Below are positions 3,598-49,463 of a DNA stretch of 64,000 bases, piece after piece. The position numbers and the translations under genes were made by a program. The notes beneath the pieces were generated by a model. That model saw nothing but the letters and a program-made list of their open reading frames with translations. It was not told the origin of the DNA and did no database searches. Source of the stretch: Candidatus Tumulicola scandinaviensis. GTDB taxonomy: Bacteria > Vulcanimicrobiota > Vulcanimicrobiia > Vulcanimicrobiales > Vulcanimicrobiaceae. Location: contig PLLA01000119.1 in assembly GCA_003140835.1 (NCBI GenBank), forward strand, positions 29,180 through 93,179. The letters run 5' to 3'. Position 1 is the stretch's first letter. Each line of letters starts with the position of its first letter.

Positions 3598-4787
3598 GAG
3601 CGCAACGCCTCGATCGGATCCAAGTTCGCGGCCCGAATCGCCGGATAGGTTCCGAAAATCATGCCGACCGCGATCGAGAAGGTCAGCGCGATGCTGACGA
3701 TCAGCAAATACGGAATGAGCAGCTCGCCGAGCTGCTTGCTCAAGAGCGACGCGGCGCCAATGGTCGCGACCAGTCCCAAACCCATGCCGATTCCGCCGCC
3801 GATGAGCGACAGGACGATCGCCTCCATCAGGAACTGCAGGACGATGTTGGAGCGGCTGGCGCCGATGGCTTTACGAATGCCGATTTCCCGCGTGCGTTCA
3901 GTGACCGAAACCAGCATGATGTTCATGATGCCGATGCCGGCCACCACGAGGGCCACCCCGCCGATCGCGGAGAGACCGGCGGCGATGACGTTGAGCGAGC
4001 TGTCGAAGGCGTTGAGAAAACCGGCGCCGTTTTGCACTTGATACTGAGCCCGGTCTCCGTGCACGTGCTGCAGAACGCGGACGGCGGCTTTGCCGACGGC
4101 GTCCGACTCCCCTTGATCGGCCGGATACACGAGAATCGAGTCGAGGTCGCCCGGCGAAAACGCGGCGTAAAACGTCGAATATGGCAACACGACGCCGCTG
4201 CCGGCGAGTGCATTCATGAACGAGCCCTTGATGTTGGCGTACACGCCGACGACCTGGCAGCGCACCCCATTGACTCGCAAAAAGTTGCCGGCCGCGGGCA
4301 CGTTTCCAAAGTATTTCTCCGCGAGGTCCGAGGTCATCACGCACACCCGTGCGGCCGAGGCGACGTCGGTGTCGTCGATTTTGCGACCCTCCGACATCAC
4401 CAGCGAATCGGTGTGATAGCCGCCGTCGATGGCGACGTTTTCGTAGTCGCGAACTCCACCGTTGGCGACCTGGTACGTGCGTTGCCAGTTCGGATAGACG
4501 GCGGCGGCCCGGTCGCCGAGCGCCTCGGAAATGGCCGCAACGTCGCGATAATGCAGCGCGGCGCGAGCTGGATCGTTTTGCGACGGATCCGGCGCGACGA
4601 AAACCGGAAGCTGACCGAACGAGGCAAACGTTCCGGTGATTCCGCTGGTCGCGGCGCGGCTGATTCCAAACACGGCGATGATGGATGCGCTTCCGATGAT
4701 CATGCCGAGCATCGTGAGCGCCGAGCGCACGCGATTGCGCCATAGCGCGGCCGCGGCTTCTTCGAGATAGGAAAGGAGATACGTCAC
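3594..4787 (-). CDS. MacB-like ABC transporter permease (first of pair)
   Basis: FtsX/MacB-type permease (397 aa), same architecture as the next gene: N-terminal helix, large periplasmic domain, three C-terminal helices, and the segment MLVSVTERTREIGIRKAIGA. The frame is open to 4892, but the likely start is GTG at 4785-4787, which overlaps the TGA of the adaptor gene (4784-4786) as GTGA. This gives a length matching the sister permease. Having two separate permeases plus a separate ATPase differs from classical MacB, where ATPase and permease are one polypeptide acting as a homodimer. Confidence 0.92.
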   Translation of the reverse strand: MTYLLSYLEEAAAALWRNRVRSALTMLGMIIGSASIIAVFGISRAATSGITGTFASFGQLPVFVAPDPSQNDPARAALHYRDVAAISEALGDRAAAVYPNWQRTYQVANGGVRDYENVAIDGGYHTDSLVMSEGRKIDDTDVASAARVCVMTSDLAEKYFGNVPAAGNFLRVNGVRCQVVGVYANIKGSFMNALAGSGVVLPYSTFYAAFSPGDLDSILVYPADQGESDAVGKAAVRVLQHVHGDRAQYQVQNGAGFLNAFDSSLNVIAAGLSAIGGVALVVAGIGIMNIMLVSVTERTREIGIRKAIGASRSNIVLQFLMEAIVLSLIGGGIGMGLGLVATIGAASLLSKQLGELLIPYLLIVSIALTFSIAVGMIFGTYPAIRAANLDPIEALRS

Positions 4788-15472: not shown

Positions 15473-16305
15473 TGCTTCGATGCGGCCGGATTGCGTATAC
15501 GAACGATCTTCCGATCTACGTGGCGTTCGATGCGGGCGCCATTGCATACCCGGGGTCGTTACATGCCGACGTTCCGGCGCGTCTCAACGCCATGCTGCTC
15601 GCCGGCGAGCTCGACTTGAGCCCGATCAGCGCGTTCGAATGGGCCAAACACGCCGGCAAACTCGTATTGCTGCCCGACCTTTGCATCGGCGCGCGCGACG
15701 ACGTCGTTTCGGTCGTGCTGGTTTCGGCCACGCCTCCGGCGCTGCTCGACGGCGCGATGGTGTACGTTACCGGCGAATCGGCCAGCGGACGCAACCTTCT
15801 GCGCGTGATTCTCGAGCGGAGATACAGCGTTCGGCCCAACTATGCCGTCGAGGCGCATCCGCTCGAACGAGCGCGCGACGGTGAGCCGACGTTGTTGATC
15901 GGCGACTCGGCAATCGATGCGATCGAAACCGTGCCCGCGGGGAACGTTTACGATCTCGGCAAGTTGTGGCACGAGTGGACCGGCGAACAAACCGTTTTCG
16001 CCGTCTGGGCGGCGACGCGCGCGGCGTACGAACGGGATCCCGAAGGTATTCGCGCGTGCCTGCACGCGCTGACCGACGCGTGCACGTGGTCGCGCTCACA
16101 CATGGACGTCGTCGTCGCGGCAGCGCAGCGCGCAATTGCGCGCCCTCCGGGCTTCTACGAGACGTACTACGGGAAGCTGAATTTCACGTTCCATTCCGCC
16201 GCGCAGAATGGATTGGCGGCTTTCTGTCGCGAGCTGCACGCCATCGGCGCGATCGACGCGGTTCCTTCGCCTCTGCCGGAGGTCATCGGTGTCCTCACTC
16301 GTTAG
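15472..16305 (+). CDS. mqnA: Chorismate dehydratase (MqnA)
   Basis: First enzyme of the futalosine route, dehydrating chorismate to 3-[(1-carboxyvinyl)oxy]benzoate (277 aa). It has the periplasmic-binding-protein-like fold of the family. Seen: an opening GRIAYTNDLPIYVAFD (family members read KIxYxNxxP near the start), LDLSPISAFEWAKH, VTGESASGRNLLRVIL and LLIGDSAID. It sits between mqnE and mqnC with overlaps at both ends, so product and next enzymes are made together. Confidence 0.92.
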   Translation: MLRCGRIAYTNDLPIYVAFDAGAIAYPGSLHADVPARLNAMLLAGELDLSPISAFEWAKHAGKLVLLPDLCIGARDDVVSVVLVSATPPALLDGAMVYVTGESASGRNLLRVILERRYSVRPNYAVEAHPLERARDGEPTLLIGDSAIDAIETVPAGNVYDLGKLWHEWTGEQTVFAVWAATRAAYERDPEGIRACLHALTDACTWSRSHMDVVVAAAQRAIARPPGFYETYYGKLNFTFHSAAQNGLAAFCRELHAIGAIDAVPSPLPEVIGVLTR

Positions 16306-24895: not shown

Positions 24896-27544
24896 ATGTC
24901 ATTTCTGAAGGCCATTTTCGACGGAAACGAGCGAGAAGTAACTCGTCTGCGCCGCACGGCGACGGCGGTCAACGCGCTCGAGGCGGAAACGGCTGCGCTG
25001 ACCGACGAGCAGCTGCGCGCCAAAACGCAAGAGTTCCGCGACCGCCTAGCGGCCGGCGAAGAGCTGGAAGCGATGCTGCCGGAAGTCTTTGCGGTGGTCC
25101 GCGAGGCCGGCAAGCGCACGTTGAGTATGCGCCATTTCGACGTGCAGATCATGGGCGGCCAGGTGCTCTACGAAGGCCGCATCGCCGAGATGAAGACCGG
25201 CGAAGGCAAGACCTTGGTCGCAACGTTGCCGGTGTACGCGCGGGCGCTCGAAGGCCGCGGGGTCACCGTCGTGACCGTTAACGACTATCTTGCCCGGCGC
25301 GACGCGGAATGGATGAGCCCGCTGTACGAGTTCCTCGGCCTCACGGTCGGGATCATTCAGCATGGCCTTGACTCCGCAGAGCGCCGCGCCGCTTACAATT
25401 GCGACGTTACTTACGTCACCAACAACGAGGTCGGCTTCGACTACCTGCGCGACAACATGGCATGGCAAGTCGAAGACCTGGTGCAACGCGAGTTGTACTT
25501 CGCACTCGTCGACGAGGTCGACTCGATTCTAATCGACGAAGCGCGCACGCCGCTGATCATCAGCGGGCCATCTCAGGAATCGGGCGAGCTGTATGACAAG
25601 TTCGCGCAGATTCTTCCACGCCTGAAGAAGGGCGAGGACTATACGGTCGACGAGAAGGCGCACGCCGTTCCGATTATGGAACCGGGCGTGGCCAAAGTCG
25701 AGAAGATGCTCGGCGTTCAGAACCTCTACGACCAGCGCAACATCGAGCTGGCGCATCAGCTCAACGCGGCCCTAAAGGCGTGGAATCTCTTTCATCGCGA
25801 CCAGCAGTACATCGTCAAGGACGGCGAAGTCATCATCGTCGATGAGTTCACCGGCCGCTTGATGTACGGCCGCCGCTACTCCGACGGGATTCACCAGGCG
25901 ATCGAAGCCAAAGAAGGCATCAAAGTTCGCGGTGAAGACCAGACGCTCGCGACGATCACGTTTCAGAATCTGTTCCGGCTGTACGACCATCTCGCCGGCA
26001 TGACGGGTACCGCGAAAACCGAGGAGCGCGAATTCCGCGATATCTACGGCTTAGACGTGGTCGTCGTTCCGACCAACCAGCCGATGGTCCGCAAAGACAA
26101 CTCCGACATCGTTTACAAGTCGGAAAAGGCGAAGTTCGATGCCGTCGTCGACGAGATCATCGCCGAGCACCAAAAGGGCCGCCCGGTCTTGGTCGGCACG
26201 CGGTCGATCGAGAAGAGCGAACTGCTGGCGGCGATGCTGCGCCGGCGCGGCGTCGAGTGCAACGTGCTCAACGCCAAGTATCACGAGCAAGAAGCCGAAA
26301 TCATCAAAGATGCCGGCCAGAACAGTCAGGTGACGATCGCCACGAACATGGCTGGCCGCGGCACCGACATCAAACTGGGCGACGGCGTCGCGCGCAACGG
26401 CGGACTACACATCATCGGTACGGAGCGTCACGAGTCGCGCCGTATCGACAACCAACTCCGCGGCCGCTCGGGGCGGCAAGGCGATCCCGGCTCATCGCGT
26501 TTCTATATCTCGCTCGAAGATGAAGTCATGCGCCTGTTTGGCGGCGAGCGCATGACGGCAATCATGGATCGCGTCGGCTTCACCGACGAGCAGCCGATCG
26601 AATCGGGCCTGGTAACGAAGTCGATCGAGCGCGCGCAGAGCAAAGTCGAGAATCACAACTACGAGATTCGCAAGCACGTCCTCGAATACGACGACGTCAT
26701 GAACAAGCAGCGCACGATTATCTATGCGGACCGCCGTGCGATTCTGGAAGGGACGTTCGACTCCCGGACGTTCATGTTGCAAAGCTTAGTGAGTAAAGTC
26801 GACGAGGCCGTCGAACAGAACGCGCCCGAGAACGCGCATCCGAGCGAATGGGACTTCGGCGAAATGCTCGATCAACTCGATCAAGTTTTCCCGCTCAAAC
26901 GCGAGATGACCGTCGCCGACTTAGAAACCAAGGATCGCGAGGAAACTCGGCGGATCTTGAACGCCAGGGCGCTCGCGGCGTACGAAGCCAAGGAAAAGGA
27001 AGTCACGCCCGAAGTGCTGCGCCTTGTCGAGCAGCGCTACTTGCTGCTGCCGATCATCGATAGGCAATGGGTCGACCATCTGTACGTGATGGATCACCTC
27101 AAGACCGGCATCGGGCTACGCGGCTACGGTCAAAAAGACCCGCGCGTGGAATACGAAAAGGAAGCGTTCGAGATCTTCGAGTCGCTTAAGAACAACATTT
27201 CGGACGAGGCCATCAAAGGCGTCTTCCGCGTTGTCATCGAGCAGGGGCCGCCGCCGTCGGAGATGATGCAGCAAACCGGCAGCCCGCAATTCCAGCCGAT
27301 CCCATCGGGAGAAATGATTCCGCAACCATCGCAAGCACAAGGCCGCTTAGGCCCGCAGGAAGTGGAGCAACTCCTCGGGCCCATGCCAGGCGCCGACCGC
27401 AGGCCGCAGCAACTTCACACGAACAAAGACGACGAATCGGGACCGAAACCCGTGCAGCGCGAGGCACCCAAAGTCGGTCGTAACGAGTTGTGCCCGTGCG
27501 GAAGCGGAAAGAAATACAAGAAATGCCACGGGGCCGCGGCTTAA
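24896..27544 (+). CDS. secA: Preprotein translocase ATPase SecA
   Basis: Motor of the Sec export pathway (882 aa). Walker A MKTGEGKT (about residues 99-106), DEAD-type [12 protein letters not shown] (about 204), the [12 protein letters not shown] motif, the helical scaffold/wing region, and a C-terminal zinc motif [13 protein letters not shown] (about 866-878) that contacts SecB or ribosome in other bacteria. ATG 24896 has only a weak upstream GGAGA (15 nt away). The large number of predicted lipoproteins downstream would depend on this system. The last codons (27530-27548) match a noncoding stretch near 34.87 kb. Confidence 0.97.
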
Positions 27545-27614
27545 GGGGCATAGAGGAACGGGTGCGAAACGGGGCCCCCTCCGCCACGCGCGTTGCGATC
27601 CGGGCGCGGGGCGA

Positions 27615-27768
27615 AAAGGCTATAAAATAAGGCTTTTTCCGTATATCACGTGATCGGCCGGGTTCGCGCGTCGCTCGTGCAAACTTTGCAATCGCGTTTG
27701 CAAAAACTGCGACGCGTCGAAAACGCTATATGGCATAAGGCCTGTTCGTTAGGCCGGGCGATGCATGG
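27615..27768 (-). repeat. Interspersed intergenic repeat, copy A
   Basis: Reverse-complement copy of the elements at 32621-32780 and 34641-34800. Shared landmarks, read on the minus strand: CCATGCATCG, CCTTAT followed by TATAGCGTTTTCGACG, TTTTTGCAAACGCGATTGC, GGCCGATC, and a second CCTTATTTTATAGC near the far end. A 7-bp palindrome TTTGCAA/TTGCAAA lies in the middle. The ends carry a degenerate direct repeat (CCTTAT...AGCGTTTT). It lies 190 bp downstream of the GloVer gene 1 stop. Confidence 0.8.
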
Positions 27769-27824
27769 TCCGACAGATGCAACGAGGCGCATTGGTCGGT
27801 GCCTGCATGCACCCGCTCGCAATC

Positions 27825-27863
27825 TGCAATGGCGCCACGATCGGCGGCGTGGCTGCGGGGCGG
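27825..27863 (+). repeat. 39-nt exact repeat, copy 1
   Basis: Identical over 39 nt to 35036-35074. Contains the hairpin GCCACG/CGTGGC. Lies 57 nt beyond interspersed repeat copy A. Confidence 0.8.
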
Positions 27864-27957
27864 GTGTGGATGTGATGCCTGCAAAGAAACACGGCCCCGC
27901 GAATCGCGATGCCGTGCGCGGTTTTATTGGCTACCGCTGCGAATGATCCGTTCGCTT

Positions 27958-29166
27958 TCACGGCGTTAAGGAATAGACGTTTCCGTGGTGCTGATAGCCG
28001 GAACCATATGTCGTGCCGTACAGCGTGCCATCTGCTACGACCAGGCCCGCGTAAGGGCTTATGCCACTTCCGGTCCTGAAACTGTGCAGCACCGTCTCCT
28101 CGCCGCTCGTTGTGAGGCTGAAGACCACGCCGACATTTTTCACGCCGCCCATCAACGTCGTGCCGTAAAGCAGACCCTTAAAGTTAATCAGACCTGCGAT
28201 GGGTTGACTGCCGTCGCCTCCGGTGAAGTTGAAAACTGACCGTTCTCTTCCGAATGTCGTGATGCTGAAAACCGTACCGGCATATTGCGGGCCTGGGCCG
28301 TGTTGCGTCGTGCCGTAAAGCGCACCCCTGGTGTAAATCAAAGCACACGAAGGAAGCGTGCCATCGTTGGCGTTTGCCCCAAAGCTATAGAGCACGTGCT
28401 CCTTCCCCGCCGTGCTGATCATGAAGACGGTTCCGCGCTTATACTTACCGCCTTGGGTGGTCGTGCCGTAGAGCGTGCCGCCGACGTTGAGCAGGGCTGC
28501 TTGCGGATACAAGCCATCGTTAGTTTGCTTGCCGAAGCTATACAACAGACGTTCCGTGCCACTCGTCGTAATACTGAACACCGTGCCGCAGCCAGCATTC
28601 CCGCAGGGTAGCGCGCCGCCTTGATACGTCGTGCCGTATAGCGTGCCGTTGACGTCGATCAGGCTCGCGTAAGGCTGATCGCCGCCGTTTCCGGTGTAGG
28701 GGAAACTATAAAGCACCTTTTCCTTACCACCCCGTGTGATGCTGAAGACCGTACCGGAGTCATTTGCGCCTCCTTCGACCGTCGTGCCGTAAAGCGTGCC
28801 GTTGACGTCGAGAAGTCCCGCCACCGGTCCCGAGCCGTCGCCCGATCCGCCGAAACTGTGAAGCACGGTTTCCTCGCCGGTCTTGGCGACCGCAAACACC
28901 GTTCCAGCGTTGTTCGAACCGCCCATAATCGTCGTGCCGTAAAGCGTCCCCTTGACGACGATCAATCCCGCGTACGGATTCGTACCGTCGGCCGCCGATT
29001 TGCCGAACTCGTGGAGTATGTGGTACGCCTCACTCGCGCGCGATTGCTGCGGCGCCAACCCCGCCGGAGACACGCTAAGCGGGGGCTGCGATTCGCCGCA
29101 GCCCGCAAGCAATGCGGCAGCCGCACCGAGACTCAAGGCGTAGCGATTGGTAGCGAAGATACTCAT
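27958..29166 (-). CDS. GloVer-type tandem-repeat lipoprotein (seven repeats)
   Basis: Predicted lipoprotein (402 aa; lipobox LLAGC) made of tandem repeats of about 45-52 residues. Each unit reads roughly GTVFSIT..G.E..LYSFG....DG..P.A.L..VNGTLYGTT..GG. Seven LYGTT cores are present and the chain ends with a half-unit (GNVYSLTP), which would suit a closed seven-bladed propeller in which the last strand completes the first blade; that fold is inference. The ATG start has GAGGAG upstream. The repeats are also visible in DNA as recurring GTCGTGCCGTAAAGCGTGCC. Function unknown; related to the gene at 33032-34285. Confidence 0.85.
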   Translation of the reverse strand: MSIFATNRYALSLGAAAALLAGCGESQPPLSVSPAGLAPQQSRASEAYHILHEFGKSAADGTNPYAGLIVVKGTLYGTTIMGGSNNAGTVFAVAKTGEETVLHSFGGSGDGSGPVAGLLDVNGTLYGTTVEGGANDSGTVFSITRGGKEKVLYSFPYTGNGGDQPYASLIDVNGTLYGTTYQGGALPCGNAGCGTVFSITTSGTERLLYSFGKQTNDGLYPQAALLNVGGTLYGTTTQGGKYKRGTVFMISTAGKEHVLYSFGANANDGTLPSCALIYTRGALYGTTQHGPGPQYAGTVFSITTFGRERSVFNFTGGDGSQPIAGLINFKGLLYGTTLMGGVKNVGVVFSLTTSGEETVLHSFRTGSGISPYAGLVVADGTLYGTTYGSGYQHHGNVYSLTP

Positions 29167-29349
29167 TCGCGGGTCTCCTCGTAGCTAAACGATTTTGAAG
29201 ACGATTCGCGTTATGGGGACCCAGTCCCGGTTCGAAACCAAGCCAAGCGGCACGAACAGGTCTCTGCTACGGCGCGCTGAAGGTCGCGAATACGGTATCA
29301 GGCTCAGCGGTTTCATCGTTCGGTTAAGTTTGAATAGGTAGTGGTTGAA

Positions 29350-30270
29350 ATGATTTATTCACGACTGACACGCCCCGTAACAGTTCTCGGATGCGCAAGT
29401 CTGATTTCAGGATGCGCGGGACTTTCGCCAAGTGGGAGCGCCGGCGTAACGATGCCAGTAGTTCGTTCTTATGCAGTCGCACAGTTTAAATCATTTCACT
29501 ACACAGGAAAGCCGCAACGGTTTAAAGTCCCAAGTAGCGTAACGCAAGTCACGATCATTGCTGACGGCGCAGGGGGTGGAAGCGGCACGGGTTATGCGCC
29601 TGGCGGACGTGGCGGGCATGTTCATGCTATCGTGCCAGTGCAATCAAATGAAACGCTGTACGTTTACGTTGGCGGCGTTACGAATGGCAGCAGCGGCGGA
29701 TTTGACGGTGGTGGAAACGGCGAACAGTGGGGTTACTGCGGTGGTCCTTTCGGAGGTGGAGGTGCGACCGATGTGCGAGAGGGTGGGCAAAGTTTAGAAA
29801 ATCGCATTGTTGTTGCGGGCGGGGGAGGCGGCGCAGGTGGTGATTTGTGTAGCAACACCCAAGGCCAAGGTGGTCCAGGCGGAGCGCGTACGGGTGGTCG
29901 CGGCCAGGATGCTTCTGGCGTTGGCGCTGGAGACGGGGGAACTGGTGGTACGCAAACCCACGGTGGTTTGGGTGGGAAAGGCGGTAGTGGTTCTTCCGGA
30001 GACGGACAACGCGGAAAGCCTGGCAATGTAGGAGTTGGTGGTGCCGGAGGCAACGCGGTTTGCGATGGAAGATGCCCGGCCGGCGGCGGCGGTGGGGGTG
30101 GATATTATGGTGGTGGTGGCGGCGGCGGCGGTGGATATTATGGCGGCAGCGGCGGTGGCGGCGGCGGAGGATCCTCGTTTGTCGAAGCGAGTGCTAAAGG
30201 TTTTCGAATGTACCGAGGCTCGAAATACAACACGGGTAATGGTTACCTAACGATCGAGTGGCATCAGTGA
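29350..30270 (+). CDS. Glycine-rich lipoprotein with ALK/LTK-like glycine-rich domain
   Basis: Exported protein (306 aa) with a lipobox-like LISGC. A beta-rich start (TGKPQRFKVPSSVTQVTIIA) leads into long polyglycine segments with interspersed Tyr, Asn and Ser (for example GGGYYGGGGGGGGG), ending FVEASAKGF...GNGYLTIEW. This pattern resembles the glycine-rich domain first known from the ALK and LTK receptors and also found in bacterial surface proteins; residues between are typical (DGAGGGSGTGYAPGGRGG). ATG 29350 is preferred over GTG 29341. Codon use is AT-richer at third positions than in neighbouring genes, suggesting recent arrival. Confidence 0.7.
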   Translation: MIYSRLTRPVTVLGCASLISGCAGLSPSGSAGVTMPVVRSYAVAQFKSFHYTGKPQRFKVPSSVTQVTIIADGAGGGSGTGYAPGGRGGHVHAIVPVQSNETLYVYVGGVTNGSSGGFDGGGNGEQWGYCGGPFGGGGATDVREGGQSLENRIVVAGGGGGAGGDLCSNTQGQGGPGGARTGGRGQDASGVGAGDGGTGGTQTHGGLGGKGGSGSSGDGQRGKPGNVGVGGAGGNAVCDGRCPAGGGGGGGYYGGGGGGGGGYYGGSGGGGGGGSSFVEASAKGFRMYRGSKYNTGNGYLTIEWHQ

Positions 30271-30322
30271 CCTGTCTACATTAGGAAGGCCGCGTTACAC
30301 CAAGCTCTTTTTAAAGCAGCGG

Positions 30323-30649
30323 TTATTCCAGCGATGCCTTGACCATTCCGCGGCATAAGCTTACAAGTCTCAGCAGATTATACCAATGCCTCGGATGGGG
30401 CACGCGCGCTCCGGCACGAAAGCGGGAGCACACCGTGAGCGAAAGATCCGTCGCCTTGGCGATTTCCGCGAGAGTGAAGGCGTCGAGCTTCGGCACGATC
30501 TCGCGCAAGAACCACGCGGCATCGCGATCGCCGCCGCTTCTGCAGCGCGTCCATTTACGATTGCGGCGATGCAGCTCGGCATTAGCTTCGCCGCGCTTGC
30601 GCCTGGCGCGATCGCTCGCGCGCGGATCGTGGGCTAGGTTTAGGTCTCG
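30323..30649 (-). pseudogene. Remnant of a gene ending in a helix-turn-helix domain
   Basis: A minus-strand frame is open from a stop near 30650 to 30323 but has no convincing start until a TTG at 30508. It reads a basic helical stretch (ARRKRGEANAELHRRN), then DAAWFLREIVPKLDAFTLAE and IAKATDLSLTVCSRFRAG followed by RVPHPRHW. The second half is a clear helix-turn-helix. The order basic region, REIVPKL, HTH, PHPRHW looks like the C-terminal part of a larger DNA-binding protein that I cannot name with certainty. The N-terminal part is missing, so it is called a fragment. Confidence 0.55.
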
Positions 30650-30664
30650 TCACCGATCTTGCGA

Positions 30665-32158
30665 CTAGTAGTCGATCTCGGGCCCGGGGCTTTGCACCGA
30701 CATGCACGTCTGATAGTCCGAGGGCTCAGGGATCTTTGTAAACTTTGTCGGCTGCTGCGAGTAGTTGAAAACGTCATCGTAGGCGTCGGCGCGCTTATCG
30801 TCCAGGCCCAGCGTAAACGTCGGCCCGAGGAAGGTCTTCTCGATAAAATGCAACGCTGATGCCGTTTCATGCTGCGAATGCGAAATGTAATGCTGCTTGG
30901 CGTACGGAGAGATGATAATCAGCGGTGTTCGGTATCCAAGGCCCTCATAGGCGCCTGTTACGGGGTTCTGGTATTGCGGCGGAACGACGTGGTCAAAGAA
31001 GCCGCCCCACTCATCCCAGCTAATTATGATCGCCGTACTATTCCAATAAGAACTCTTGCCGATCGCGTTCACAATCGCAGTTATCCATGCCGGGCCGCAG
31101 TCCCCCGCTTTTGCACCTGGGTGGTCGGACGCACCTTCGTGTGGCATTACCCATGACACTTGCGCAAGATTGTTATGCGCGATGTCGGTAAGCACTAGCG
31201 TATCTGGTGTGACGATGTTGTTTTCGTCCGGTCCATAGCGCACCGCCTTGATCGAGTCAAACGCGTCCAGCCAATCAGAATCGTACTTATTGAAGCCAGA
31301 CGAGTTTTGCCGCGGCTCCGATGGTGGAGGAGTCGGCTGCTTGTACCATCGCCACGAAACCTTCGCGGCGTCGAGCCCCTTCGCGATGCTGGTAATGGTA
31401 TAGCACGGATTTGGTCCCTTGACCTCATGTCCGAAGATCGCCGGAAACGTCGGAGGACGCGCCTGCCCGTATTTCAGGTAAAATTCAAACGGCGGACTAC
31501 TCGGATCTTTCGGTGCGTCGCAGCCCCAAGGCATCACGCTCGGGACCTCGGAAGCGTGGTTTTCCTGCCCGGCGACAAGTTCCAGGTGCTGCCCGTAACT
31601 CGGGCCGTTGTCCGACGCAAAGTTATCGTCACCGAGAGTATATCGTGACGCCATTGTCCAGTACGGCTGAATTTCGGATTTTGGAACATATGTGAAGGGA
31701 AACTTATAGTAGGATGATCCGTAAAATATCCAACACTTGGGTTCGTTGACCCAGTTGTACACCCATTTCTTGCACTCTCCAGTTGTCTCGTGATTGGCAA
31801 CCATTAGGTTCCATCCGTCATTCTTGCCGCCATCGTAGTCTTCGAGGAAATCATAGTGATAGTGAGGTATATCAAGCGTTAGGACGATGGAGTGCGCTTC
31901 TAGGGTGTACTTCTTGCCGTGGCCGTAGCCGTACGTCGCCGTGTTGGCACCGGGAAAACCGTAGAAGAGGTTATCGAAACTTCTGTTCTCCTGCATGATT
32001 ATGACGATGTGCGTAATCGGTGACGAACTTGAGTGCCGACGCGCGAAGAGACTCGTCGATGCGTCGGGGACGAGGTTGTGCGTGGAGGACGCTGAGTTGC
32101 AGGCCGCGGCCAGCGCCAGGGCGGCCAGCCCTAGGACAATAAAAACGTATCGCTTCAT
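30665..32158 (-). CDS. AcpA/phospholipase C-type phosphoesterase, lipoprotein
   Basis: Extracytoplasmic phosphoesterase (497 aa) of the PF04185-type family that includes phospholipases C and AcpA acid phosphatase. Lipobox ALAAAC. Seen: Glu-Asn metal ligands in MQENRSFDNLF, a likely nucleophile Ser in NGPSYG and Asp-Glu metal ligands in ISWDEWGG, matching the AcpA arrangement. Conserved closing TPLIIISPYAK and HETASALHFIE are present. ATG follows GGAG. This is one of four paralogues in the window (also 44590, 48048, 49509). Whether the substrate is a phospholipid or another phosphomonoester is open. Confidence 0.9.
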   Translation of the reverse strand: MKRYVFIVLGLAALALAAACNSASSTHNLVPDASTSLFARRHSSSSPITHIVIIMQENRSFDNLFYGFPGANTATYGYGHGKKYTLEAHSIVLTLDIPHYHYDFLEDYDGGKNDGWNLMVANHETTGECKKWVYNWVNEPKCWIFYGSSYYKFPFTYVPKSEIQPYWTMASRYTLGDDNFASDNGPSYGQHLELVAGQENHASEVPSVMPWGCDAPKDPSSPPFEFYLKYGQARPPTFPAIFGHEVKGPNPCYTITSIAKGLDAAKVSWRWYKQPTPPPSEPRQNSSGFNKYDSDWLDAFDSIKAVRYGPDENNIVTPDTLVLTDIAHNNLAQVSWVMPHEGASDHPGAKAGDCGPAWITAIVNAIGKSSYWNSTAIIISWDEWGGFFDHVVPPQYQNPVTGAYEGLGYRTPLIIISPYAKQHYISHSQHETASALHFIEKTFLGPTFTLGLDDKRADAYDDVFNYSQQPTKFTKIPEPSDYQTCMSVQSPGPEIDY

Positions 32159-32256
32159 GATACTCCGTCCGCGGTGCAGGTTCGTCCGATCATTTGGCGT
32201 GCGATAACAGAACCCCCCTCGCGATTAAGCCAGCCCTGCGCCCTCTAAGCGAGTCC

Positions 32257-32517
32257 TCAGTTGTCTCCCATCGCCTTGGGTGTGATATCCGGGTTTAGGC
32301 GTCGGGGAGCGGCGGTATCAATCGTTCTAAGCGCCTCTTCGATCTTAACGATGGTCGAGACATGCGGTGTCACCCCTTGGTTGACGAACGCCTGAAGCTT
32401 GGAGCGCGCAACACCGCTCATGCGAGCGATTCGCTTGATTCCAGCGGCCCCCACCGCCGCACGCAAGGCGTTGAACTGCTCTTCGGGGTTTCGGACGACA
32501 GAAGGGAAGCTCGCCAA
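32257..32517 (-). CDS. Small helix-turn-helix DNA-binding protein
   Basis: An 86-residue protein with a Cro/XRE-like helix-turn-helix (about 22-62: IKRIARMSGVARSKLQAFVN, then TPHVSTIVKIEEAL). It lies between the phosphoesterase and repeat copy B, 98 bp upstream of the former in its transcription direction, so it may be co-transcribed with it or regulate it. Could be a chromosomal repressor or a lone antitoxin-like regulator; no toxin partner is seen next to it. Confidence 0.7.
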   Translation of the reverse strand: MASFPSVVRNPEEQFNALRAAVGAAGIKRIARMSGVARSKLQAFVNQGVTPHVSTIVKIEEALRTIDTAAPRRLNPDITPKAMGDN

Positions 32518-32620
32518 GCGAACGCAAAAGCCTGACCTACTGGGGTTCAGATTTCAAGAGCGCAGGGATCCAGTTTCTTGCGAGCGCTTACACCCTGCAC
32601 GTCACGATACACCTGCTACG

Positions 32621-32780
32621 CCCATGCATCGCGTTGCGATGCTAAAAGCCCTTATACCATATAGCGTTTTCGACGCCGTGGGGTTTTTGCAAACGCGATT
32701 GCAAAGTTTGCACGAGCCGCGCGCGAGGCCGGCCGATCATGAGATATGCGAGAAAACCCTTATGTTGCAAGGGTTTTCGA
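32621..32780 (+). repeat. Interspersed intergenic repeat, copy B
   Basis: Plus-orientation copy of the element at 34641-34800. Landmarks: CCATGCATCG at the left, CCCTTATACCATATAGCG then TTTTCGACGC, TTTTTGCAAACGCGATTGC, GCGCGAGGCCGGCCGATC, and a second CCCTTAT at 32757-32763. The right end differs from copy C after this point. It lies about 250 bp beyond the 3' end of GloVer gene 2. Confidence 0.8.
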
Positions 32781-32970
32781 GTGCAGCGGCGAGAACTGCG
32801 ACGGCGCAGCAACGCCGCGACAGACGCCCTCGGCAGCAATCCACGTTCCGGCAACAACGATACCTTCGTGATAGGCGTCACTTCGTGGCTGCTGCTTTTG
32901 CATCGCGGCAGTTACTGCCAAGAGGCTTTGACCTGGTCGGCTCATTTTGAAAAATTTCCTAAACAGTTGA

Positions 32971-33002
32971 AAAGTAAAGAACGCCCCATGAGGAGCGTTC
33001 TT
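32971..33002 (-). terminator. Intrinsic terminator of GloVer gene 2
   Basis: Minus strand: AAGAACGCTCC, 4-nt loop, GGGGCGTTCTT (11 pairs, one G-T wobble), running into TACTTTTC. It lies 29 bp past the stop of the minus-strand gene ending at 33032. A standard Rho-independent terminator. Confidence 0.85.
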
Positions 33003-33031
33003 GCGCCAGAATGAGTTTTAGCGAAGTGGCT

Positions 33032-34285
33032 CTAGGGCGTTAGCGCGAATACCGTTCCGTCGTTGGAAGCTCCACCCACATTTGTTGTGCCATAAAGCGC
33101 GCCCCCGACGTTAATCAGACCCGCTTCGGGGTTTGCTCCATCGGAGCCGCCGCGAAAGCTATAGACCACGGCATATACTCCACTCGGCGTGATGCTGTAA
33201 ACCGTACCGAGGTTGTTTGTGCCGCCGCTTGACGTCGTGCCGTATAGTACTTTATTAACCATGAGTAAGCTGCCGTACTGCGGGCTTGAACCATCCTGGC
33301 CGCCGAAGAAACTGTGCAGTACCGTCTCGGTCCCGTTCAGGGTTACCTTGAATATGGTACCCTTGTTTGCCGGATAGCCACCGCCGGCCGTCGTGCCGTA
33401 GAGCGCGCCTCCCACCTTGATCAATCCGCTCGATGGGTTTGAACCGTCAGGGCCGCCTTTGAAGCTGTAAAGCACCGTCTCCGTGCCGGATGGCGTGATG
33501 CTGAAGACGGTGCCCACATCATGCGTACCGCCGGAGTACGTAGTGCCGTAGAGCGTGCCATTGACCTCGAGGAGGTCTCCTTGAGGACTTGCGCCGTCTG
33601 TGCCGCTGCCGAATGAGTGTAGAAGCGTTTCGGAGCCAGACGACGTGATGCTATAAACCGTCCCTCCGCCGCCAGATGTTCCCTGGTAAATTCCGCCTCC
33701 ATCCGTTGTGCCGTAAAGCGTGCCGTTCACGCCGATTAATCCGCCCAATGGGAAACTGCCGTCCACGCTGCTTTTGCCAAAACTGTGCAAGACGGTCTCA
33801 TTGCCTGACGAGCTGATCCGATATACGGTGCCGCAGCCGTTGCAGCCGTTACCCATTCCACCGGAGTTCGTCGTGCCATAGCCCGACGTCGTTAAGCCCG
33901 CAAAAGGGTATGCTCCGTCCGAGCCTGCACCAAAGACGTGTACAACCGCTTCCGATCCCGACGTGGTGACGCTAAAGACGGTTCCATAGCTATTTGATAC
34001 ACCTCCCAAGCGCGTCGTGCCGTAGAGCGCGCCCCGCATGTATCGCAAGGTTGACAGAGGATGGGCGCCATCACCGCCGCCCTTAAAGCTATACAAAGCG
34101 CTTTCGCTTGCCTGAAGCCGACGTAGCGTGCTTGACGGCGATCCGCCGCCTTGTCCTAAAGCGTACGCGCCGGATGGCACCGCCTGCGTTCCTTGTGGGC
34201 CGCCGCAAGCGGCCAGCACGAGGGCTACTGACAATACCGCTGAGGAGCGTACGGCCGCAGCGGTATGTAGAGCGGATAGTCTCAC
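33032..34285 (-). CDS. GloVer-type tandem-repeat lipoprotein (seven repeats)
   Basis: Predicted lipoprotein (417 aa), paralogue of the protein at 27958-29166. The frame is open to 34645, but GTG 34283-34285, preceded by GAGGGGAG, starts a signal peptide with lipobox LVLAAC; the upstream residues are not protein-like. Seven GTT..GG cores (one degenerate, SGYGTTNSGG) each preceded by a VF/VYSIT..G.E.VLYSF strand, ending in the half-unit GTVFALTP. Seven-bladed propeller closure is inferred. Flanked by directly oriented interspersed repeats B (3' side) and C (5' side). Confidence 0.85.
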   Translation of the reverse strand: MRLSALHTAAAVRSSAVLSVALVLAACGGPQGTQAVPSGAYALGQGGGSPSSTLRRLQASESALYSFKGGGDGAHPLSTLRYMRGALYGTTRLGGVSNSYGTVFSVTTSGSEAVVHVFGAGSDGAYPFAGLTTSGYGTTNSGGMGNGCNGCGTVYRISSSGNETVLHSFGKSSVDGSFPLGGLIGVNGTLYGTTDGGGIYQGTSGGGGTVYSITSSGSETLLHSFGSGTDGASPQGDLLEVNGTLYGTTYSGGTHDVGTVFSITPSGTETVLYSFKGGPDGSNPSSGLIKVGGALYGTTAGGGYPANKGTIFKVTLNGTETVLHSFFGGQDGSSPQYGSLLMVNKVLYGTTSSGGTNNLGTVYSITPSGVYAVVYSFRGGSDGANPEAGLINVGGALYGTTNVGGASNDGTVFALTP

Positions 34286-34640
34286 GAGATCGATTCTCCC
34301 CTCTCTCTTCGAGCAACAACTTAACCGCTCGTGTAGGCCGGAGCGGCGAAACGGATTCTTCGCGTTGGAAGGGGCGCGCCCTGTCCGTGCGCGCTCCTCA
34401 CGCGGCTGCTGATCGCCGGCCGACGCAAGGATCGTGGCATCGGAAGGCCCCATTTCGTACAGTACGTTTAGGAGTTGTAAGTTCGAGCCGTTTAAGCGGT
34501 TCGACCGTCGCAGCCAAGGCCCCGGGGCATAGCTAAAACCCCTTCGCAGCCCAGCAGCCACGCCAGCGATCGTGGCGCCAATGCAGTCGCGAGCACTACG
34601 GCTTGACGCATGGAGCATGCGCCTCGATGCAGACGCCATG

Positions 34641-34800
34641 ACCATGCATCGCCAGGCCTAGCTAAAAAGCCTTATACTATATAGCGTTTTCGACGCATGG
34701 CGGTTTTTGCAAAAGCGATTGCAAAGTTCGCACGAGCCGCGCGCGAGGCCGGCCGATCGCGCGATATGCGAGACAACCCTTATTTTACAGCGTTTTTGCG
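34641..34800 (+). repeat. Interspersed intergenic repeat, copy C
   Basis: Same element as copies A and B. In this copy the terminal direct repeat is clearest: CCTTATACTATATAGCG then TTTT at 34670-34690, and CCTTATTTTACAGCGTTTTT at about 34778-34797, about 107 bp apart. Lies 356 bp upstream of the GloVer gene 2 start. Confidence 0.8.
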
Positions 34801-35035
34801 CGAGGAGCCCTGCCGGCGGCTTGTCGACTGGGGGCCCGGAATTACCCCCTTAACCCTATGCCCGGGCCGCGGCTTAAGGGGATAGGAGTTGGGCGTCTTT
34901 GAAACGACGCCCCCTCCCGGCGGCTGAGCTCTAAGCATCCGGGCCGCCGCGTTCCAAGCGCAACGCGTTAAGCGCTGCGGTCTAAACCGCGAGTCTGCTG
35001 CGAGCTAAGCTTCCGCGCTGCGAGGCTCTCGCAGG

Positions 35036-35074
35036 TGCAATGGCGCCACGATCGGCGGCGTGGCTGCGGGGCGG
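35036..35074 (+). repeat. 39-nt exact repeat, copy 2
   Basis: Identical to 27825-27863, same orientation, containing the GCCACG/CGTGGC hairpin. Lies about 240 bp to the right of repeat copy C. Confidence 0.8.
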
Positions 35075-35209
35075 CTAGGAGTCCGGGATTGTTATGCGCC
35101 GCCATTACCAACGCGGCTCGGCTGCCGTGATCCGACATACTGTCGATTCCGGCGCACTCTGGCATGAATCGGCCTCACCTAGGCGAATCCGAGCGGTGGA
35201 GCTCGGAAC

Positions 35210-44589: not shown

Positions 44590-46043
44590 CTAATAATCTT
44601 TCTCGGGCGGCGCGTTCTGCTGAGCGAGGCAATACTGGTAGTTCGAGGGTGGGGTGAGCGGCTTGAACTTCGTCGCCGGCTGTGAAAAGTTGAAAACATC
44701 GTCGTAAGCATCCGCCCGCGCGTCAGCATATCCCAGCGACGCTAGGCCGAAGGTGTTCTCGATGAAATGTAGCGAGGACGCCGTCTCGTGCTGCGACTTC
44801 GAGACGTAATGGTTTTTCGCGTAGGGTGAAACGATGATCAGGGGCGTGCGGTAACCGAGGCCTTCATAGGGGCCCGGACTTTCTTGCGGTGTCGGATACT
44901 GCGGTGGCACGACGTGGTCGAACCACCCGCCCCATTCGTCCCATGAAATAATGATCGCGGTGCTGTTCCAATACTGGCTCTCACCGATCGCATTAACGAT
45001 CGCGGTTATCCACGCGGGTCCGCAGTTACCCGAGCCGCTGCCGGGATGATCGGACGCACCCTGATGTGGCATGATCCACGATACCTGCCGCAGCTGTTTG
45101 TCGGCAATATCGGTGAGGACTTGCATATCGGGCGTCACGACGTTCTTGTAATCCGGACCATCGCGAACTTGCTTGATCGAATCGAACGCGTCGAGCCAAA
45201 ACGAATCGTATTGATTGTAATCCGGGCCGGCCGCCTCCGATGGCGGATCCGGTTGCTTGTACCATCGCCACGAAACGTTCGCGGCGTCCAGCTCGCTCGC
45301 GATGCTCGGAAAGGTGAAGCACGGATTTGGCCCCTTCACGTCGTGGCCGAAGATCGCCGGAAATGCCGGTGGCTTTGCTTGCCCGTAACGGAGGTAGTAC
45401 TCCCAGGTACCCTTCGGCGCGTCGCACCCCCACGGCATATCCGATGGAACCTCGTCGGCGTCGCCTTCCTGCCCGGTCACCATGACGAGGTGATTTCCGT
45501 AGCTCGGACCGTTCATCGATGTAAAGTTGTGATCGCCGAGCGTATACTGCGAGGCCAGCGTCCAGTACGTCTGGATTTCAGATTTGTACACATACGAAAA
45601 TGCCATTTGCTGATAACTCTTGCCGGTCCAGAAGTTCCAGCACGACGGCTCATTCACCCAGTTATTGCCGTATTTGCACCCTGAGGTTTCTCCACGAATC
45701 AGTTTTTCCCAGCCGTCGTTCTTGCCGCCGTCGTAGTCCTCCAAAAATTGATAGCGGTAGTGGTTGAGATCGAAGGTCCACGTTAGATGCTTTGGTACGA
45801 GCGGGTACTTCACGCCGTGTCCGTAACCGAAGGTCGCGCTGTCGGCGCCCGGAAATCCCCGAAAGAAGTTATCGAAGCTCCGGTTCTCTTGCATGATAAT
45901 GACGACGTGCGAAATTGGAACGGTGCTCGCGCGCCATGACGCTCGGTGGTGGCCGTCGGCGTTGTGGGTACGAGATTGCGCGTTGGGGACGAAGTGCAAG
46001 CAACGGCCAACACTGGAACGAGTAAAATGGCAAGTCGCTTCAC
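44590..46043 (-). pseudogene. AcpA/phospholipase C-type phosphoesterase interrupted by one frameshift
   Basis: GTG 46041-46043 starts a lipoprotein signal (VKRLAILLVPVLAVAC) and linker NLVPTTPTATTERHG. The catalytic domain (to 44590) is in another frame from about 45930 on: ISHVVIIMQENRSFDNFF, NGPSYG, ISWDEWGG, all metal-ligand motifs intact. One missing base near 45921-45940 explains the break; the sister gene at 30665 has the same linker start (NLVP) in one frame. If the shift is real, the enzyme loses its export signal. If it is a sequence error, this is a normal fourth family member of about 484 residues. Confidence 0.8.
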
Positions 46044-48047: not shown

Positions 48048-49463
48048 TTAGTAGTCGTCGCCAGGCGTGTTATCCGGGTGATTTTTGAAATAGGCGGCGT
48101 TCAGTTTGGTCGGGATCGGTTGGAAGACGATCGGGTTTTGGGTGTAGTCGAACATGTCGTCGAAGGCATCGGCTCTGGCATCGGCTAGGCCGAGCGAACC
48201 GAGACCAAAAGTGTTCTCGATGTAATGCAGCGTGGAGGCGATTTCGTGCTGCTGATGTGAAATGTATCCGGCTTTCGCGTAGGGCGACACGACGATCAGC
48301 GGCACGCGGAAGCCAAGTCCTTCGCGTGCACGCGTTACCGGATCGGGATACTGCGGGGGATGGACGTGATCGTACCAACCGCCCCATTCGTCCCACATGA
48401 TGATGATCGCCGTGCTGTCCCAGTAGCTGCTTTCTCCAACGGCGTTGACGATCGAGGCGACCCAGTCGGGGCCGCCGCTACCCGAATCGGGACCGGCATG
48501 ATCCGACTTGCTGCCGCTGGGCATTACCCACGACACCTGTTGCAGGTTTCCGTTCTTAATATCGTCGAGCACTTTCGTGTCAGGCCGCACGACGTTCGAC
48601 CAGTCCGGACCATTGATGATCTGGGAAATCGCTTCGAACGCCGATAGGTTCGATCCAGAGTTCGGCGGCGGCTGAACGTAGTAGCGCCACGTTATTTTCG
48701 CTCCGTCCAAGAGCCCGGCGATCGTCGGATAGGAAAAACACGGAAACGGCCCGGGCACTTCGTGGCCGACCGCCTTGGAAAACACCGGCGGATTCGCTTG
48801 CCCGTACTGGAGGACTTCGACGGTGGTGGATTTGTTCTGGTTATCGCAGCCCCAGGGCTGGCCGTCCGGAACTTCGGACGAGTGTCCCGACTGCCCGGCG
48901 ATCATGTACTGATGCGAAACGAAGCTCGGGCCGCTATTCGAAGAGAACGTGTTGTCGCCGAGCGCGTATTGCGAAGCCATCGTCCAATACGGCTGCACCT
49001 GCGACTGCTCGACATACGAATAGGCCATCGTCTTGAACTTCTGCGTGGTGTAGAAGGACCAGCACGATGGATGGTTGATTGGGTCGCTGCACTCGGAGCC
49101 GGTCTTAAACTTCGCGATCTGACTGTCGAACCCGTCGTCTTTTCCCTGATCGTAGTCCTCCAAAAACTGCGGGTGGTCGTGTCGAAGGTCCCAAACGCGC
49201 CATTGCAGCGTCACCGGTTGGAGTACGTACTGCTTGCCGTGTCCCGGACCGGAATTGGCAGTATTCGCACCGGGAAAGCCGTGGAATAAGTTGTCGAAGC
49301 TGCGGTTCTCTTGCATGATCACGACGACGTGTTGAATCGGCGTCGATCCGCCGAGCGACCGTGCGGCGTTCGGCACGCCGAGCGGCCCGGCGCTCGTTTG
49401 CGAATACGGCGCGTTGCAAGCGGTCAGGAATCCTAGAATAAGAAAAAACGTAAGGCGCTTCAT
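48048..49463 (-). CDS. AcpA/phospholipase C-type phosphoesterase, lipoprotein
   Basis: 471-residue paralogue of 30665-32158. Lipobox GFLTAC. Metal and nucleophile regions: MQENRSFDNLF, NSGPSFVSHQ and IMWDEWGGWYDHV. Closing LIVVSPYAK and HEIASTLHYIE conserved. Good Shine-Dalgarno (GGGAG). Next gene on the same strand and upstream in transcription is another paralogue, so these two form a tandem pair. Acts outside the cytoplasm; substrate unknown. Confidence 0.9.
   Translation of the reverse strand: MKRLTFFLILGFLTACNAPYSQTSAGPLGVPNAARSLGGSTPIQHVVVIMQENRSFDNLFHGFPGANTANSGPGHGKQYVLQPVTLQWRVWDLRHDHPQFLEDYDQGKDDGFDSQIAKFKTGSECSDPINHPSCWSFYTTQKFKTMAYSYVEQSQVQPYWTMASQYALGDNTFSSNSGPSFVSHQYMIAGQSGHSSEVPDGQPWGCDNQNKSTTVEVLQYGQANPPVFSKAVGHEVPGPFPCFSYPTIAGLLDGAKITWRYYVQPPPNSGSNLSAFEAISQIINGPDWSNVVRPDTKVLDDIKNGNLQQVSWVMPSGSKSDHAGPDSGSGGPDWVASIVNAVGESSYWDSTAIIIMWDEWGGWYDHVHPPQYPDPVTRAREGLGFRVPLIVVSPYAKAGYISHQQHEIASTLHYIENTFGLGSLGLADARADAFDDMFDYTQNPIVFQPIPTKLNAAYFKNHPDNTPGDDY

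Follow-up and report, generated by a model that had tools for sequence, protein, structure and literature searches.

We report that an interspersed repeat, present in three copies around two GloVer genes in a 64,000-nucleotide stretch of the genome of Candidatus Tumulicola scandinaviensis (the window, in what follows), is very probably the terminal inverted repeat (TIR) of casposons, transposons driven by an enzyme related to the Cas1 of CRISPR, whose insertion site here is the 3'-end of the secA gene. The hallmarks of such elements can be read from the DNA itself: inverted ends, exact 15 bp duplications that equal the end of the host's own secA gene, a complete element carrying both Cas1 and PolB in a related genome, and tandem insertions. 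We infer, from the same sequences, that a Cas1 casposase acts on these ends. Casposons are a rare class of mobile element and have been proposed as the source of the CRISPR adaptation machinery. To our knowledge, bacterial casposons have seldom been described, and most known targets are tRNA or EF-2 genes of archaea. The genome under study (4.0 Mb, 130 contigs) is denoted G000 below and the other G numbers denote the genomes of relatives.

A sequence-only reading of the window had described the repeat as a unit of 155 bp that contains a palindrome at its centre and a pair of direct repeats spaced about 107 bp from each other. Alignment bears out the positions and strands it gave for the three copies, A, B and C (Table 1). 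The palindrome (TTTGCAA-6-TTGCAAA, with a 6 bp spacer) and the direct repeats (CCTTAT...GCGTTTT) are both present, in a layout that is found again in other genera. Copies A and C are 84% complementary over 160 nt, copies A and B match at 81% over 145 nt and copies B and C at 81% over 178 nt; the matches of A and B to copy C (E = 1e-43 to 1e-44) lie well beyond chance. The repeat is real, but its true extent is greater than was proposed. When all of the copies are aligned, the homology reaches outward past the 155 bp to a conserved terminus of the GGG..ATA type, and between copies A and C it covers some 325 bp, including an inner 50-mer. The full unit of about 250-360 bp, of which the 155 bp stretch is only a part, forms the TIR and begins at the 8 bp terminus GGGCATAG. 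Copy B lacks the terminal part and its match stops at position 32781. About seven further copies were found when the whole genome was searched, as the earlier reading had advised (contigs C104, C29, C31, C92, C72 and C115), with more in relatives, in keeping with its proposal of an interspersed family; we also agree that this is not a known repetitive extragenic palindromic (REP) sequence, miniature inverted-repeat transposable element (MITE) or insertion sequence.

Copies A and C had been taken for free-standing units. They are instead the inverted termini of a casposon-type element, E1, whose two ends are 69% alike in an alignment of 331 columns and have their first 8 bases, GGGCATAG, in common. 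The GloVer genes, previously noted as lying near the copies, are inside this 7.3 kb element; the copies do bear on the movement of these genes and recombination between them, the route suggested at the time, is possible, but the main explanation is a site-specific insertion of Cas1 type at secA. Where no flanking target duplication had been expected, an exact 15 bp duplication, GGGCCGCGGCTTAAG, abuts both inverted ends exactly. This 15-mer, consisting of the last codons and stop of secA, has only these two occurrences in the window, even allowing 2 mismatches, against a chance expectation of 4e-4 per window. Its sequence varies between genera (GGGCCGCGGCTTAAG in G000, GAGCCGCGGCCTAAG three times in G004, GAGCCGCCGCGTAAG twice in G055 and GCGCCGCAGCTTAGC twice in G059) yet is the end of the host's own secA gene in 4 of the 4 genera checked, which identifies it as a duplicated target rather than a part of the element. 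Wherever the search found head-to-head ends, they lie 14-16 bp apart, mostly exactly 15.

Table 1. Features of the window and of the complete element on contig C118 of G055.
Feature	Sequence	Position	Strand	Remarks
secA (target gene)	window	24896..27544	+	Pfam/NCBIfam SecA
SEC-C codons of secA, putative leader	window	about 27506-27530	+	just upstream of the duplicated target
Target site duplication, copy 1	window	27531..27545	+	GGGCCGCGGCTTAAG; secA last codons and stop, exact repeat
E1	window	27546..34863	.	7,318 bp; casposon-type without intact cas1; inverted ends, 15 bp duplication, Cas1 remnant
Left terminal region	window	27546..27867	-	GGGCATAG terminus to inner 50-mer; el profile 27793-27509, E = 1e-70
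Copy A	window	27615-27768	-	inside left terminal region
Inner 50-mer, left	window	27814..27867	+	subterminal inverted repeat
Cargo GloVer protein 1	window	27958..29166	-	TIGR03803, 3.7e-75
Cargo glycine-rich protein	window	29341..30270	+	PF12810
Casposase remnant	window	30362..30634	-	C-terminal helix-turn-helix part of Cas1, 91 codons, not within an intact gene
Cargo phosphoesterase (PLC/acid phosphatase-like)	window	30665..32158	-	PF04185, 8.9e-52
Cargo HI1420-type antitoxin-like protein	window	32257..32517	-	PF21716, 2.1e-5, below cut-off
Copy B	window	32596..32781	+	truncated end within E1 that lacks the terminus; matches only positions 4-191 of 291 of the el profile, E = 2e-47
Cargo GloVer protein 2	window	33032..34645	-	TIGR03803, 8.2e-74; open frame extends into right end
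Right terminal region	window	34540..34863	+	aligned with left end; contains copy C
Inner 50-mer, right	window	34540..34599	-	inside right terminal region
Copy C	window	34641-34800	+	inside right terminal region
Target site duplication, copy 2	window	34864..34878	+	GGGCCGCGGCTTAAG; exact, direct orientation
Left end of neighbouring element	window	34879..35081	+	second end type GGGATAGGAGTT..., tandem behind the duplication; unit profile 34846-35081, E = 2e-50
Cas1	G055 C118	4804-6447		inside element; intact-looking casposase (E/H/D/E residues, Zn motif, helix-turn-helix)
Helix-turn-helix protein	G055 C118	6515-7639		inside element, beside cas1
PolB-like protein	G055 C118	10019-13444		inside element; 1,141 aa, C-terminal helix-turn-helix
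DNA methylase	G055 C118	13451-14560		inside element

A complete example in a relative is the element of 14,678 bp at 1228-15905 on contig C118 of G055, which is apparently young and has perfect 358 bp TIRs homologous to the repeat. The secA gene lies here on the minus strand, its end GAGCCGCCGCGTAAG occupies 15906-15920 and a second GAGCCGCCGCGTAAG is found at 1213-1227, so that the element is bounded by exact 15 bp duplications of which the outer one is the end of secA. Pfam scans of the larger genes of this element and of E1, in which not all of the small open reading frames (ORFs) were included, revealed no tyrosine or serine recombinase and no DDE transposase. In G004, three identical 15-mers follow secA, separated by 8.7 and 4.7 kb, and this row implies tandem insertions. 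G059, of another genus, holds three copies of the repeat and a 7,618 bp element with the same ends, whose exact 15 bp duplication is the end of its own secA on another contig (C5). In G031, the 17.1 kb contig C137 starts and finishes with the repeat and holds Cas1 in between. A single copy of the repeat was found in G001, of the same genus as G000, where it stands directly behind secA; the right end of this element was not found in a search by its 15-mer. When public genomes were scanned for the central motif, the only match lay in a metagenome-assembled genome of Candidatus Eremiobacterota (L092), again directly behind secA. One of two related end types immediately follows the secA stop in G000, G001, G004, G014, G018 and G020, the second type (GGGATAGGAGTT...) doing so in G004 and G018; in most of the other relatives whose secA 3'-ends were read, neither type is present. 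A third end type, GGGATAGATACCGTATT..GCGTCAAGCG, abuts the 15-mer at secA in G059 and, in G000, at two sites (L207 1-160; L060 about 3807-3830; L071 about 3946). Defence-type genes were also observed near casposon ends (L067/L068, which are contig C9 of G059, L187 and L066), namely SIR2-like, McrBC, CAP12-PCTIR TIR, Mrr restriction enzyme and NB-ARC/cyclase genes.

Cas1 was first seen as a fragment among the scanned genes of the G004 island, and was then sought in 98 relatives and, with the Cas1 of contig C92 as query, in its own genome. This gave 22 matches in G000, 17 of them on repeat-bearing contigs and one inside E1. Genes or remnants lie beside repeats on C92, C102, C101, C77 (four), C42, C116, C14, C115 and C79, as well as in the window, where the remnant in E1 is 73% identical to residues 429-519 of the C92 protein (8e-44). 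The C92 Cas1 is itself intact-looking, at 524 aa, and lies about 4 kb from a copy of the repeat. In an alignment of 11 Cas1 sequences, E170, H253, D265 and E268 are invariant and the Zn-type cysteines are kept, and seven sequences of the group 'cp' have a C-terminal helix-turn-helix (HTH) region. The best PDB matches, by sequence, include the Methanosarcina mazei casposase 6OPM. This protein, the only casposase reference in our Cas1 tree, falls on the side (SH-aLRT 89) of a clade that stands apart from the CRISPR-type Cas1 of the relatives (SH-aLRT 99). No neighbouring cas genes were seen near Cas1 in the Pfam scans, through which alone they were looked for. The accompanying PolB family is represented by five aligned proteins that carry the exo DTET, DFLSMYPT, K..ANSxYG and YxDTDS motifs. 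One of these, the 1,004 aa relative on C137 of G031, was given no name by Pfam itself; DNA_pol_B_2 matches two members of the family (C24 and G036), and there is one PDB match to a DNA polymerase (9e-4).

Two further groups of Cas1 were noted. A second casposon type resides in the same genome at 142-158 kb of contig C24 (L184), with a PolB of 1,131 aa divergent from an intact-looking Cas1 of 497 aa that is 39-41% identical to the C92 protein; profiles of the present repeats did not find the ends of this element. A separate Cas1 clade with Zn-type cysteines and without the C-terminal HTH occurs in G018, G001 (two), G004, G025 and G074 (loci L188, L182, L183, L189, L192 and L175).

The target sites suggest how insertion might be directed. 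At ectopic insertions on C92, C90 and C116, a stretch of about 25 bp, nearly identical to that in secA, directly precedes the 15 bp gap; the putative leader common to secA and these sites reads GG.AA.AA.T.CAAGAAATGCC.CG and there is little likeness beyond it. Such a shared stretch is what a leader-reading integrase would leave, though it may also have arisen by co-duplication of the secA tail with an element end. Published casposases insert TIR-ended DNA by a leader at gene 3'-ends and form tandems (PMC6614799, PMC10359463, PMC4046053, PMC9939771). On our reading, a Cas1 casposase, of which C92 and C24 carry intact-looking copies, would bind the TIRs, where the palindrome and direct repeats are probable binding sites for Cas1 or for the HTH protein. 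The SEC-C codons of secA would serve it as a leader, much as CRISPR Cas1 reads one, and the element would be inserted 3' of this leader through cuts staggered by 15 bp, the resulting duplication leaving secA intact. PolB would replicate the element, as in the published casposon model. E1 would then be a copy without a working cas1, requiring movement in trans, with the two GloVer genes as cargo, and tandem arrays would grow by further insertion at the duplication next to the leader.

A tandem arrangement is seen in the window itself, where a neighbouring element, probably degraded, starts directly behind the second duplication of E1. Within E1, the true start of GloVer protein 2 is probably near 34.3-34.5 kb. 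The window also holds three related PF04185 phosphoesterase genes, one in E1 (30665-32158) and two outside it (44590-45999 and 48048-49463), which have stretches of 72-80% identical DNA in common.

The inner 50-mer has a wider distribution, with more than 40 copies in G000, many of them in same-orientation runs on contig C77. Between 4 and 33 kb of this contig (L058/L059), about 25 copies of the 50-mer/220 bp unit lie in the same orientation, one every 0.5-1 kb, and the second end type (GGGATAGGAGTT..., a 220 bp unit) is the parent of these units. Between them are small ORFs (one DUF4279), an IS110 transposase, a beta-lactamase-family gene and four Cas1 remnants. The cluster may represent the accumulated debris of old insertions or, alternatively, cassettes arrayed in order. 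We consider it an unlikely, though tenable, extension of our reading that serial Cas1-driven insertion at the secA leader gave rise to gene cassettes (small immunity- and defence-type genes) ordered in a CRISPR-like array and split by duplicated targets and end remnants; a Cas1 integrase would in that case have built up a gene archive resembling that of an integron.

Several observations weigh against the casposon reading. Simple insertions do not fully explain the C77 cluster. E1 has no intact cas1 or polB and is non-autonomous, the C92 element runs off its contig so that its PolB is not visible, and Pfam picked out no HNH nuclease in the element of G055. The ends of E1 are about 31% different although its 15 bp duplications are identical, and E1 was therefore either inserted with ends that were already unlike or is a composite of more than one element; the truncated copy B inside E1 points the same way.

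The repeats might otherwise be attachment-site arms (attP/attC-like) of a tyrosine-recombinase island or an integron-like cassette system, the 15-mer being the att core at the secA 3'-end. Tyrosine integrases typically insert at gene 3'-ends with a short direct repeat, the repeat contains dyads, C77 has its same-orientation runs with small genes, and on C116 a C-terminal tyrosine recombinase fragment (L070 9180-9587) lies beside one unit, directly upstream of the ectopic secA-like target. The complete G055 element, however, carries Cas1 and PolB, with no recombinase among its scanned proteins, and symmetric, perfect 358 bp TIRs with a fixed 15 bp duplication are marks of transposition; nor does any integron integrase exceed the cut-off, the best match to TIGR02249 reaching 54.6 bits against 265. 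The G055 element largely refutes this explanation, which we regard as highly improbable. The tyrosine-recombinase site, which the C116 fragment had prompted us to consider, was dropped once that element was found, and the integron/attC interpretation of the C77 repeats was rejected, there being no integrase and the box layout being wrong. A dif-like Xer site, as the central palindrome with its 6 bp spacer might suggest, was set aside because the repeat follows element ends and secA, and a viral origin found 0 matches in a pattern search of viral contigs.

With some ten copies in the genome, no gene within any of them and copy B free-standing, a MITE or REP-like repeat could be imagined, in which case the copies around the GloVer genes would be unrelated insertions and the 15-mer coincidental. 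Independent elements in several genera are bounded on either side by exact 15-mers that match the secA end of their own host, and this leaves the idea very little credence; it is already refuted for copies A and C, though not for copy B. Smaller still is the chance that the repeat is a structured non-coding RNA, terminator or regulatory element, conserved downstream of secA, that was duplicated by chance. That it lies immediately behind secA both in L092 and within the same genus, and has a hairpin-like symmetry, would fit, but copies occur at inverted element ends with duplications both at and away from secA and have no Rfam match. Folding with RNAalifold, as the sequence-only reading had suggested, gave no conserved RNA fold across 14 copies (3 pairs, -0.1 kcal/mol), and copy C folds no better than shuffled sequences (z -0.95).

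The casposon reading also agrees with what has been described elsewhere. Casposons have target site duplications with a median of 15 bp, TIRs of 25-602 bp, some with internal palindromes, and insert at gene 3'-ends and in tandem (PMC4046053); casposases use a leader motif and a 14-15 bp duplication (PMC6614799), and tandem insertion occurs in vivo (PMC10359463). The present elements most resemble the bacterial casposon family 3 (NitAL212-C1, AceAut-C1), a likeness of features and not of placement in a tree of families 1-4. They share with it a Cas1-solo with intact catalytic residues and a Zn-binding domain, an HTH fused to the Cas1 C-terminus as in AceAut-C1, an HTH protein next to cas1, PolB, TIRs, the 15 bp duplication and insertion at a gene 3'-end. 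They differ in their phylum, which by kinship is Eremiobacterota, in the secA target, in the Cas1-less derivatives, in the many end copies per genome and in that no HNH was recognised by Pfam; an HNH endonuclease and a conserved HTH protein are common, not universal, in casposons. The C-terminal HTH of PolB has been reported for family 2 (PMC4046053). The casposons of Aciduliprofundum boonei (family 2) and M. mazei likewise have a leader with a 14-15 bp duplicated target at a gene 3'-end and form tandems (PMC6614799, PMC10359463, PMC9939771), though their characterised targets are tRNA genes rather than, as here, the SEC-C codons of a protein gene. Tn7 is similar in outline: it inserts site-specifically just past an essential gene (glmS), forms tandem islands and has complex ends in which binding sites are repeated. 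It makes 5 bp duplications by means of the DDE transposase TnsAB, in contrast to the 15 bp duplication and Cas1 found here. Sedentary chromosomal integrons share the runs of small genes split by same-orientation repeats, as on C77, where in contrast there is no integron integrase and no proper attC layout, and Cas1 remnants lie between the repeats.

The kind of element is thus known, as a casposon, while the phylum, the target gene, the multicopy Cas1-less derivatives and the tandem clusters appear to be undescribed. Among the open papers that we searched (subscription papers lay outside the search), none joins casposons with secA or Eremiobacter-, nor casposase with WPS-2; a broad survey, announced as unpublished in PMC9966878, may include Eremiobacterota. 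One bacterial family here holds many casposons with a defined target, secA, and host-matched 15 bp duplications, and offers in addition tandem insertions, an apparently young element whose TIRs are perfect and derivatives that lack Cas1 and bear cargo. Together these provide a natural series for studying how a duplicated target beside a leader turns into an array.

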